A stretch of DNA of 58,230 nt from an uncultured Candidatus Melainabacteria bacterium (GTDB lineage: Bacteria > Cyanobacteriota > Vampirovibrionia > Gastranaerophilales > Gastranaerophilaceae), in assembly GCA_934747325.1 (NCBI GenBank), contig CAKVGW010000002.1, positions 1-58,230 of the forward strand. The letters run 5' to 3'. The notes below the pieces were generated by a model that had not been told where the DNA came from, made no database searches, and saw only the letters and a program-made list of their open reading frames with translations. Of the stretch, positions 1,075 through 43,647 are shown piece after piece. The translations under genes were made by a program, and so were the position numbers. Numbering within the stretch: the first letter of the stretch is position 1; the number at the start of each line of letters is the position of its first letter.

Positions 1075-1082
1075 GTGCTACG

Positions 1083-1180
1083 GTGCTACGCACGTAGATA
1101 CTTGGTCGGCTGACAATTTAATACTACAAGTTTAAATTAAGACTACAAGTCAGCCTCGATGGTGAAACTACAAGTAAAAA
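1083..1180 (+). promoter_or_regulatory. Repeated structured intergenic element, copy 1
   Basis: Lies just after the Ycf46-like stop codon and before ycf35. A CTAC-GCAC-GTAG hairpin (1086-1097) is followed by GGCTGAC (1108-1114) pairing with GTCAGCC (1149-1155). Inside that stem, AATTTAA (1115-1121) pairs with TTAAATT (1132-1138). The motif ACTACAAG occurs three times (about 1123, 1142 and 1167). A second copy at 43534-43626 has the outer stem as GGTTGAC/GTCAACC, a compensatory change. It may be a structured RNA acting on the downstream gene or a small mobile repeat. I do not recognise it as a known riboswitch. Confidence 0.6.
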
Positions 1181-11369: not shown

Positions 11370-11445
11370 ACATGAGGGATTTGTTTCAATCTATAATTTG
11401 GCATAAATGCCAATGCATAACTGTCCATAACAATTTTCATCAAAT

Positions 11446-11894
11446 GAACGACATTCGCGCCGCGAACGTGCAGCGTTTAGCTGCGATAGCGAGCGCTAGA
11501 GTGCAAGCTCTGCTTGCTACATCCATTTTAATCAACGCTCGTAAGAGCGTAGAAGCGGTAGCGTGTTTTCTCTTTCTTTTCGTTCTTTTCTGGGGTAAAT
11601 ACTTTCGGCTTGTAGGAACACTTACTAGCTTGGAAGTGAAGTGAAAAATCTTTTTATTCGCAACAAAAGAGAAAGAAAAGGACATTTCAAAAAACTTTTT
11701 TATTTCAAAATAGTTTTTACTTTTTTCTTTTTTTTGTTGCGAAATAAAAAGAAAAAAGTAAGCAAAAAAGAAAAATAACGCACTATTTCCTACGCTCTTA
11801 CGAGCGTTGACAAAATGAATGTAGCGGGTGAACCCGCTCTTTGACGCTCACTATCGCAGCTAATCGCTGCACGTTCGCGGCGCGAATGTCGTTC
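11446..11894. mobile_element. Fold-back element, copy 1 (449 bp, long imperfect palindrome)
   Basis: The ends GAACGACATTCGCGCCGCGA and its complement are the tips of arms of about 110 bp that pair almost throughout. The arms are GC-rich in an AT-rich genome and contain sub-hairpins: GCAGCGTTTAGCTGC-type, GCAAGC/GCTTGC in the left arm replaced by GCGGGT/ACCCGC in the right arm, and CGCTCGTAAGAGCG. The centre holds two further A/T-rich hairpins. There is no transposase gene. A second copy lies inverted at 25371-25762. Compared with it, this copy has about 60 bp of extra central sequence near 11590-11655. It is probably a non-autonomous mobile element. Confidence 0.75.
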
Positions 11895-11939
11895 AAAATT
11901 GTATTCTGTTTAGAAATTTCTCTAAAAGTTTCTAAATTT

Positions 11940-15360: not shown

Positions 15361-15430
15361 TATCCTCTCCAAGAGAGAGGATAGAAAATCAAGTTGGCTG
15401 CGCGAAACTTAGATTTACGGGAGAGGGTTC
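15361..15430 (+). repeat. Dispersed palindromic repeat, solo copy A
   Basis: Hairpin TATCCTCTC/GAGAGGATA (15361-15383), then a second hairpin of about 12 bp beginning GAAAATCAAGTT and closing AACTTAGATTT, then GAGAGGGTT. Near-identical units lie at about 34880-35011 and 35409-35554, on both sides of the DUF559 gene. Confidence 0.75.
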
Positions 15431-15455
15431 AAGTCGTAGACGATATTAAAATAAA

Positions 15456-25200: not shown

Positions 25201-25370
25201 TTCATGTGCCTCCTTTACTACCAGTGCTTTTTGCACTAATCAAAATTTTACTAACGATAATATAATACTATAAAAACAAAAAACATGTAAATTTTACACT
25301 TTTTATTTTATGTATTAAGAAATTGTTACAAAAATTGTAAAAAACTTCTCTCCTTGAATATATATATAAC

Positions 25371-25762
25371 GAACGACAATCGCGCCGCGAGCGTGCAGCG
25401 TTTAGCTGCGATAGCGAGCGAGAGAGTGCAAGCTCTGCTTGCTACATCCATTTGAACCACGCTCGTAAGAGCGTAGAAAACAGTGCGTTATTTCTTCTTT
25501 TTGCTTACTTTTTCTTCTTTTATCGTAATAAAGAAGAAAAAGTAAGAGAATTTTTTGAAATAAAAAGTTTTTTGAAATGTCCTTTTCTTTCTCTTTAGTT
25601 GCGAAGAAAAAGAGAAAGAAAAGAACGAAAAGAAAGAGAAAACACGCTACCGCTTCCTACGCTCTTACGAGCGTTTAATCAAATGGATGTAGCAAGCAGA
25701 GCTTGCACTCTCACGCTCGCTATCGCAGCTAAACGCTGCACACTCGCGGCGCGAATGTCGTT
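25371..25762. mobile_element. Fold-back element, copy 2 (392 bp, inverted relative to copy 1)
   Basis: The same end sequence (GAACGAC, then CGCGCCGCGA) and arms as 11446-11894, but the asymmetric centre runs in the opposite direction. Sub-hairpins in the arms (GCAGCGTTTAGCTGC, GCAAGC/GCTTGC, CGCTCGTAAGAGCG) are kept. Central hairpins are formed by CTTACTTTTTCTTC and its complement, and by TTTTCTTTCTCTTT and its complement. No transposase is present. It lies in the 690-bp gap between speD and the HEAT-like gene; the remainder of the gap is featureless AT-rich sequence. Confidence 0.75.
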
Positions 25763-25893
25763 TGTTTTTTATATATTTTTATATAAAATTAAAAATCTTT
25801 ACATTGATATTAAGATTATGTAAGGAAATCAGGTTTTTCAAAAAATTTAGTCTATAATAAAAATGCTAAAAGAAAAATATGAAGGAGAAAGAT

Positions 25894-34879: not shown

Positions 34880-35011
34880 TCCTCTCACTTGGAGAGGGAA
34901 ATACCTAAAGTCGTTCGGTGTTAGCGCTAGCCCCTCTTTTTGGGAGAGGGCAGAAAATCAAGTTGAGCTGTGCGAAACTTAGATTTTCGGGAGAGGGTTT
35001 GAGCCAGAGGC
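34880..35011 (+). repeat. Dispersed palindromic repeat, copy B (left of DUF559)
   Basis: Units in order are CCTCTC/GAGAGG hairpin (about 34881-34897), ACCTAAAGTCGTTCGG, a second CCCTCT/AGAGGG hairpin, the GAAAATCAAGTT...AACTTAGATTTTC hairpin, GAGAGGGTT and GAGCCAGAGGC. The same order recurs at 35409-35554, and the second half at 15361. Confidence 0.8.
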
Positions 35012-35030
35012 AAAAATTACAAAACAATGT

Positions 35031-35408: not shown

Positions 35409-35554
35409 TCCCTCTCCCTAGCCCTCTCCCTATGGAGAGGGAATAACCTAAAATCGTTCGCTTTTTCAGCCCTCTCTTTGGGGAGAGGGCTGAAAATCAA
35501 GTTGAGCTGTGCGAAACTTAGATTTTCGTGAGAGGGTTCGTGCCAGAGGCGAAA
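35409..35554 (+). repeat. Dispersed palindromic repeat, copy C (right of DUF559)
   Basis: Same order of units as copy B in the same direction: CCCTCTCC/GGAGAGGG hairpin, ACCTAAAATCGTTCG, CCCTCTC/GAGAGGG hairpin, the GAAAATCAAGTT...AACTTAGATTTTC hairpin, GAGAGGGTT and GTGCCAGAGGC. With copy B it frames the DUF559 gene as direct repeats. Confidence 0.8.
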
Positions 35555-35565
35555 ATTAAAATGTT

Positions 35566-42831: not shown

Positions 42832-43533
42832 ATGGGCAAAATTGAAATTACACACGAAATCGAAGAAAAGTGTTGTGTACATCGTGGTATAAAAGGAACT
42901 CCGGCTCCTATTCCACAAGAAGGTGAATGGACAAAATGTAAAGAAATTACTGATATTTCAGGTCTTACTCACGGTTGCGGATGCTGTGCACCTCAACAAG
43001 GTACTTGTAAGCTTACTTTAAACGTTAAAAACGGTATCATTCAAGAAGCTTTAGTTGAAACTATCGGTTGTTCAGGTATGACTCACTCAGCAGCTATGGC
43101 AGGTGAAATTCTTCCTGGAAAAACTCTTCTTGAAGCATTAAACACAGACCTTGTTTGTGACGCAATCAACGTTGCTATGAGAGAATTGTTCTTACAAATC
43201 GTTTACGGTAGAACTCAATCTGCTTTCTCTGAAAACGGACTTCCTGTAGGTGCAGGTCTTGAAGATTTAGGTAAAGGACTTTGTTCTATGTGTGGTACAA
43301 TCCACTCAACAGCTCAAAAAGGTGTTAGATACTTGTCATTAACTGAAGGTTACATCTTGAAAATGGGTCTTGATAAAAATGATGAAGTTATCGGTTATCA
43401 ATTCGTAAATCTTGGTAAAGTTATGGATGCTATCAAGAAAGGCGTTGACCCTAAAGAAGCTTACGAAAAGAATATCGGTACTTACGGCAGATTTGCTGAT
43501 GCGGTTAAGTATATCGATCCTAGAGAAGAATAG
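42832..43533 (+). CDS. Iron-sulfur scaffold-like (NifU/IscU-related) protein
   Basis: A 233-aa cysteine-rich protein with Cys at 14, 15, 36, 49, 51, 52, 59, 80, 109, 151 and 154. The middle (TLNVKNGIIQEALVETIGCSG) matches the IscU/NifU N-terminal fold, in which the Cys of GCSG is a cluster ligand. HGCGCC and CSMC are extra clusters of Cys. This type is regularly encoded beside GGGtGRT proteins, as here. It may assemble or carry an Fe-S cluster for that partner. AAGGAGG precedes ATG. Confidence 0.82.
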   Translation: MGKIEITHEIEEKCCVHRGIKGTPAPIPQEGEWTKCKEITDISGLTHGCGCCAPQQGTCKLTLNVKNGIIQEALVETIGCSGMTHSAAMAGEILPGKTLLEALNTDLVCDAINVAMRELFLQIVYGRTQSAFSENGLPVGAGLEDLGKGLCSMCGTIHSTAQKGVRYLSLTEGYILKMGLDKNDEVIGYQFVNLGKVMDAIKKGVDPKEAYEKNIGTYGRFADAVKYIDPREE

Positions 43534-43626
43534 TGCTACGCACGTAGATATTGGGTCGGTTGACATTAGTAAGACTACAAGTCTGTTTTTAAATCTAACA
43601 GGTCAACCTCAAATTGTAAACTACTA
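43534..43626 (+). promoter_or_regulatory. Repeated structured intergenic element, copy 2
   Basis: Begins on the base after the Fe-S scaffold gene stop. CTAC-GCAC-GTAG (43536-43547), GGTTGAC (43558-43564) pairing with GTCAACC (43602-43608), and an inner AGACT-ACA-AGTCT hairpin. About 30 nt at the 5' end are nearly identical to copy 1 (1083-1180), while the interior differs. ACTACAAG occurs once and ACTACTAG once. It lies before the GGGtGRT gene. Confidence 0.6.
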
Positions 43627-43647
43627 GAAAAATAAGGAAATAAAAAT

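Follow-up and report, generated by a model that had tools for sequence, protein, structure and literature searches.

The fold of integron attC sites is kept while their letters vary, and these sites lie behind stop codons and in arrays. GTAG REPs are units of 20–40 bp with stems of 6–9 bp, for which RNA roles are given and whose termini often supply the TAG stop of the flanking ORFs (PMC3733652), and REPs are located very close to, or directly behind, the stop codons of rayt genes (PMC2817692). Since GTAG REP termini often provide the TAG of flanking ORFs, stop adjacency as such is not new. Furthermore, in-frame insertions in proteins are known for the Rickettsia palindromic elements (RPE) (PMC2229807, PMC10969869). 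Here, we describe a structured element of gut Gastranaerophilales whose features suggest a mobile DNA repeat more than a regulatory switch of specific genes.

The window, i.e., the whole stretch of DNA that was analysed (58,230 nucleotides), holds two copies of this element. The unit is made up of a 5' head ((G)GTGCTACGCACGTAG), a 7-bp self-complementary stem of variable letters (P2), a loop of about 36 nt and a terminal ACTACAAG. A covariance model built from 40 copies (R1) matches only these two copies strongly in the window, the next best match reaching 15 bits. The features are as follows.

1075..1082, forward strand: partial head duplication GTGCTACG, separating copy 1 from the TAG stop (1072-1074), from the sequence and ORF 67-1074
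1083..1177, forward strand: element copy 1, one unit (R1 94.2 bits, E 1.5e-25)
1083..1097, forward strand: copy 1 head GTGCTACGCACGTAG, with P0 hairpin GTGC (1083-1086)/GCAC (1090-1093), then GTAG (1094-1097)
1094-1097, forward strand: GTAG of the copy 1 head, 5' side of the possible helix P1, from RNA folds
1108..1114, forward strand: 5' arm of the P2 stem of copy 1, GGCTGAC, from sequence, pairing test and column couplings
1149..1155, forward strand: 3' arm of the P2 stem of copy 1, GTCAGCC, closing a loop of 34 nt, from sequence, pairing test and couplings
1167..1174, forward strand: last ACTACAAG of copy 1, with CTAC (1168-1171) as possible 3' side of P1
43533..43630, forward strand: element copy 2, one unit (R1 88.6 bits, E 7e-24)
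43558..43564, forward strand: 5' arm of the P2 stem of copy 2, GGTTGAC, from sequence and pairing test
43602..43608, forward strand: 3' arm of the P2 stem of copy 2, GTCAACC, closing a loop of 37 nt, from sequence and pairing test
43620..43627, forward strand: ACTACTAG, variant of the terminal ACTACAAG, copy 2, from the sequence

The original prediction of two recurrent copies with a common 5' part is well founded: the 18-nt head GTGCTACGCACGTAGATA is exact at 1083-1100 and 43533-43550, where shuffles give an expectation of 0.02, and the common block covers the first 33 nt at 91% identity. ACTACAAGT occurs three times in copy 1, as had been noticed (1123, 1142 and 1167), and once in copy 2 (43574), against an expectation of 0.38 for the four occurrences in the window. 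A position directly after the stop had been proposed for copy 1, but GTGCTACG (1075-1082) intervenes there between the TAG and the element. Copy 2 adjoins its stop exactly, beginning with the final G of the TAG at 43531-43533 (ORF 42832-43533). The names Ycf46 and Ycf35 given to the neighbours of copy 1 were not borne out, the upstream protein matching AAA (PF00004) and the downstream one matching neither Pfam nor NCBIfam. Near copy 2, the GGGtGRT protein was identified by a PF14057 match, while the Fe-S scaffold proposed as its partner depends on a weak NifU match (24.9 bits against a cut-off of 187.9). The window probably belongs to the genus in which the element is mainly found, because several genomes of that genus encode a GGGtGRT protein with 97% identity to the one in the window. 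The window also contains other repeats: two palindrome-rich repeats of several hundred bp (11418-11895 and 25357-25791), alike in both orientations and with arms up to 94% complementary, and a dispersed repeat with GCTGTGCGAAACTTAGATTTTCGGGAGAGGG-like sequence (34929-35022, 35468-35561 and 15397-15454; 74-88% alike).

The P2 stem is established. The two window stems, GGCTGAC/GTCAGCC and GGTTGAC/GTCAACC, carry the paired change originally reported, and the argument that such changes favour structure over chance holds at sites that were not selected for pairing. These were taken from 99 distinct sites of the 18-mer followed by at least 80 nt, 38 of which, among them both copies of the window, show GTCGG where it is expected. 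At 29 of these 38 sites, the five bases after GTCGG pair fully with five bases 30-44 nt further on, and at 27 of these 29 the loop measures 35-37 nt. Swapping the pentamers between sites left a mean of 5.1 fully pairing sites and a maximum of 13 in 500 trials. Furthermore, the four strongest of all column-pair couplings, calculated on the 246 of 350 units with enough letters, are the stem pairs 28-73, 29-72, 30-71 and 31-70. Swap test and coupling analysis are both unselected for pairing, the coupling profile itself being derived from alignment A1; A1 comprises 40 of 53 candidates preselected for at least six of seven stem pairs, and the covariation and RNAalifold results based on it are biased. 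A plain repeat devoid of structure is ruled out by the pentamer swaps and the column couplings.

Stems vary widely in sequence, with 32 distinct perfect versions. The variable pair positions of 290 of the 350 distinct units provide 1450 cells, namely 1368 Watson-Crick, 16 G-U and 66 unpaired, many of the last coming from a subclass with another stem (e.g., GGCTTC...GTCCGCC), and at stem position 3 all four pair types are common (122, 78, 65 and 42 cells). G-U makes up 1.2% of the canonical stem pairs, against 34 of 457 (7.4%) in 21 tRNAs of the same loci (p 8e-11). This low share suggests, as far as sequences can tell, pairing at the level of DNA rather than RNA, and it could also arise from arm-to-arm correction. 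Compensatory changes alone are no proof of a functional RNA.

Two additional helices were modelled: P0, formed by GTGC-TAC-GCAC within the head, and P1, in which GTAG of the head would pair with CTAC of the last ACTACAAG around P2. Both appear in three of four RNA folds, the copy at locus L008 folding differently from the other three; the repeated ACTACAAG had been placed partly in loops, and the third one of copy 1 may rather be paired in this way. GTAG is common at head positions 12-15, preceded by P0 and 10 nt before the stem, and may be paired. Folding z-scores against shuffles were –2.39 for copy 1, –1.05 for copy 2, and –1.38 and –3.52 for the other two, so that predicted single-copy energies are moderate for copy 1 and unremarkable for copy 2. 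P0 is likely on these models: the search for further covarying pairs that had been recommended yielded column pair 3-9, where 16 of 235 units of the large set have A-T in place of G-C, although alignment A1 contains no double change in P0. P1 is a possible helix, predicted to be paired, position by position, in 206 to 221 of 228 to 237 units, including 51 G-U cells; an A at position 15 leaves it unpaired there in 12 of 14 units, and no double change supporting it was found in the family columns or in A1. Because of the covariation of pair 3-9 in the large set, P0 was preferred over the head hairpin CTAC-GCAC-GTAG proposed by RNAalifold. The head often changes at every third base, and a translated mini-ORF at the stop (GTG CTA CGC ACG TAG) was considered and set aside, as AT-biased change together with P0 pairing may explain the pattern.

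The exact 18-mer was found in 97 stretches of a species-representative genome set (one genome per species), nearly all from Gastranaerophilales-type MAGs, with titles naming Gastranaerophilales, Melainabacteria, cyanobacterium or bacterium, plus one Acinetobacter and one Heliobacteriaceae MAG. A viral origin found no support, with zero exact 18-mer stretches in viral_contigs. R1 gave 2 to 38 matches in each of eight genomes (E<=0.01), those in G003 and G004 being short and weak (best E 4e-5 and 1.2e-6), and across the order it matched 13 of 192 genomes (E<=1e-6). The covariance-model search of relatives suggested at the outset thus proved productive: within one genus, 40 of the 58 genomes sampled carry the element, with 1-31 matches each; all genomes are draft MAGs, which makes absences soft. 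Of 429 profile matches, 298 were kept and form 127 distinct clusters (86 single, 28 double, 10 triple, two of four units and one of five), and the unit of tandem arrays is about 104-113 nt. No Rfam family passed the threshold in the window or in three further loci other than a tRNA, and at E up to 5 the surroundings of copy 1 gave only matches far below gathering scores; a described Rfam RNA was therefore rejected, in line with the expectation that the element is undescribed there. A literature search with most subscription journals outside its range found no published description of the element in Gastranaerophilales.

The head is found in three contexts: with the hairpin body of the window type, next to intergenic sequence of other kinds, and within the reading frame of type IV pilin leaders, where it reads, as translated from DNA, FTLAEGATHVD...FTLAEVLITLGIIG. 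In these leaders, GATHVD stands between two FTLAE copies (L013, L047, L049, L051, L061, L062, L073 and others); the head is in tandem in L031, L048, L072 and L086, and one genome has 60-bp tandem repeats. In L198, the loop of a common hairpin repeat (CCCTGAA…GTTTCAGGG) contains a GGGGTAAATATT module; GGGGTAAAT, the same as in L198, is an alternative element head in L182 and L168.

The position of the element relative to genes was examined with ORFs called mechanically (at least 70 aa). Of the 127 clusters, seven fall within ORFs, and for 13 no upstream ORF could be called; among the remaining 107, the upstream ORF is on the same strand in 74 and on the opposite strand in 33 (p 9e-5). The start falls exactly at the stop codon in 47 of the 74 same-strand clusters, in 31 with the G of the element as third base of TAG and in 16 directly after the stop; the constant position after stop codons that had been suggested as a check holds for these clusters and is accompanied by other types of junction. 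As the element begins with G, the 31 TA^G junctions are TAG by construction, and for this reason only the other 16, several of them orthologous, test the stop itself: 12 are TAG and four TAA, against 28% TAG in 625 ORF ends (p 1e-4). A p of 8e-20 that disregards this construction was left out of account. The G, sometimes GG, probably belongs to the element, because nearly all matches listed in a head scan of the 58 genomes, which required only A/T three bases before, have a G before TGCTACGCACGTAG.

Grouping the sites gave 119 groups with unrelated upstream sequences. Junction classes, assigned by letters and not by ORFs on the first member of each group, are TA^G, TAG^ or TAA^ in 38, a T-tract in 28, a palindrome in six and something else in 37, the remaining 10 being without the standard head. 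One copy begins at the discriminator base of a tRNA-Arg gene; the window's own tRNA-Arg with that anticodon has no element behind it. Copies also occur between rpsH, rplF and rplR. The stops are native in the genes where the sequences allow the check: in rplF, and likewise in the gene that precedes GGGtGRT, element-free relatives have their stop at the identical codon.

At orthologous sites the element is patchy. Behind rplF and before GGGtGRT, relatives have the element, other modules, different numbers of units, or little. In the rpsH-rplF spacer, genomes G001 and G237 share 153 identical bases ending at GGTCGG of a second element, after which the bodies differ (GGTTGAC vs. GGAACAC); G237 has some 57 bases absent from G001, and then 98 of the next 100 shared bases are identical, while a whole extra element stands directly behind the rpsH TAG in G001 only. 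Because the bodies are swapped whole, some stem change at a locus is replacement and not base-by-base compensation. At other sites the stem persists, GGGTGAC being kept as first stem in six of nine sites of one group and GGGGAAC in four of six at the GGGtGRT site. In the MITE test, the single occupied/empty pair has no target duplication, and only GTAG/CTAC lie near the ends. The reading as a cis-regulatory RNA of the two window operons is not supported by these data: the element follows many unrelated genes, terminators, palindromes and one tRNA, so that its 119 unrelated site groups tie it to no single pathway or gene set, it is patchy at orthologous sites, and its body is swapped whole. The other proposal, a small stop-adjacent repeat, came nearer, but the repeat is structured rather than plain.

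A second long, apparently structured module family (…AAGCCGGTGTGAAGTCCGAATTTGGCGG…GCAATCTTTGATTGCACAGGCGG) also starts at or next to stops, behind rplF in L152, L154, L155, L160, L161 and L170 and behind rpsH in L081, L152 and L155; in L152 and L155 it has the head start GTGCTACGC in common with the element. A subclass with stem GGCTT/AAGUCC has near-identical copies behind the palindrome ATGTAACACAATACATATTGTGTTACAT (L208-L217 and L219-L222 in G131; L225 and L226 in G163), except that the copy at L216 follows another palindrome. Those at L208 and L211 are antisense upstream of type IV pilin genes. A transposition burst was considered for the similar copies of G131; because the ones inspected (L208 and L211) are antisense upstream of type IV pilin paralogues, these copies were not used as evidence of insertion.

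Candidate partner enzymes had no significant association with the element among the 58 draft genomes. The Y1 transposase (Y1_Tnp) was found in 23 of 40 carriers and 10 of 18 non-carriers (p 1.0), reverse transcriptase in 11 of 40 and two of 18, respectively (p 0.31), and an integron integrase over the curated cut-off in none of the 58. A group II intron end, suggested by GTGC and the terminator junctions, is not favoured, as reverse transcriptases showed no pattern among carriers.

The explanation to which we incline, by a modest degree, is that of a non-autonomous, hairpin-dependent interspersed DNA repeat of about 95 nt, REP/REPIN-like and found mainly in one genus of gut Gastranaerophilales. 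Copying or binding would act on one folded DNA strand, a step that would keep the stem almost purely Watson-Crick, and copies would then recombine via the common head and 3' end, by which stem subfamilies could move between sites. Copies that lie within an operon, between its genes, would be transcribed, and their hairpins might punctuate or shield the mRNA behind the stop, which would explain why the element is tolerated there. The same stem across species at some sites is what would be expected of a selected RNA and counts against this explanation, as does the predicted folding of P0 and P1 in RNA models. Such a selected mRNA 3'-end or intercistronic RNA, in which P0, P1 and P2 would form once the ribosome moves off the stop and would either stabilise the mRNA or offer ACTACAAG to a binding protein, is considerably less probable. 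The exact placement at stops, the same-strand bias (74 vs. 33, p 9e-5), the copies among rpsH, rplF and rplR, the stems shared at some orthologous sites and the tolerance of P1 for G-U (51 cells) all agree with it. It is at odds with the 33 of 107 clusters opposite in strand to the upstream ORF, the absence of the element from many orthologous sites, the whole-body swaps, the rarity of stem G-U and the loss of P1 pairing in 12 of the 14 units whose position 15 is A.

The junctions also invite the idea of insertion directed to 3' ends, with copying that uses the ends of RNAs or genes (mRNAs cleaved at UA^G within the A site of the ribosome, terminator U-tracts, tRNA ends). The 31 junctions between the second and third base of TAG, the T-tracts in 28 of 119 site groups and the junction at a tRNA discriminator base speak for it, and by analogy the TA^G position might correspond to cleavage by RelE-type toxins, which occurs behind the second base of codons in the A site, stops among them (PMC5224514, PMC7180214). 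This link is an analogy alone, however, and 29 of 40 carriers are without a reverse transcriptase, the G may be the element's own so that TA^G need not be a cut, and 37 of 119 site groups fit none of the junction types; we consider directed insertion improbable. We are equally doubtful about the broader proposal of a 3'-end marker, i.e., a fixed-head module placed base-exactly behind gene or RNA 3' ends whose spread would be coupled to them; to our knowledge, no small bacterial repeat has been shown to insert in a manner coupled to such ends. Little credence is likewise given to an origin of the paired changes in mutation rather than function, with one arm rewritten from the other by template switching in the hairpin: it fits the almost pure Watson-Crick stems and the four common pair types at stem position 3 (122, 78, 65 and 42 cells), but at the single locus compared closely the whole body, not an arm, was replaced, and placement and spread are left unexplained, making it at most an addition. 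An attC-like recombination site used by an integron integrase would account for a fold kept despite letter changes, behind stops and in arrays; with the integrase over the cut-off in 0 of 58 genomes and ribosomal protein genes among the flanking genes, it is very unlikely indeed. If the interspersed DNA repeat is the right reading, gut Gastranaerophilales carry a fast-moving repeat that needs its fold more than its sequence and has a precise gene-end address. The question of how REP-like repeats reach gene ends and choose among them then becomes accessible to tests, thanks to dozens of stem variants whose sites are known across many related species.

Compared with known systems, the element resembles attC sites in its fold, kept despite letter variation, in its location behind stops and in its arrays, and is unlike them in the lack of an integron integrase over the cut-off (0/58) and in having housekeeping neighbours rather than cassettes. 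With RPE and MITE-like repeats it shares a length of around 100 nt, an intergenic location and, as predicted, hairpin transcripts (PMC2229807, PMC10969869), and its head, in frame in pilin leaders, parallels the in-frame insertions of RPE; it differs from them in that no long terminal inverted repeats were seen in the element, its stem being internal, short and variable, and in abutting stops exactly, with body swapping. Like GTAG REPs (PMC3733652, PMC2817692) and REPINs, it is interspersed, hairpin-forming, located behind genes and clustered, and with GTAG REPs it also shares a stem in the range of 6–9 bp with alternative sequences, a terminus that often contributes to the TAG stop of the neighbouring ORF and, less clearly, a GTAG near the hairpin. 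Unlike them, it has a unit of about 95 nt instead of 20–40 bp, a loop of about 36 nt and, in front of GTAG, a hairpin of the head's own; its stop G comes from GTGC of the head and not from GTAG, it has no association with a Y1 transposase (RAYT) in the 58 draft genomes of the genus, and its bodies are swapped. Because unit size and transposase association were both tested and both differ, the element is not filed as a classical GTAG REP. Its GTAG...CTAC recalls the layout of a REPIN.
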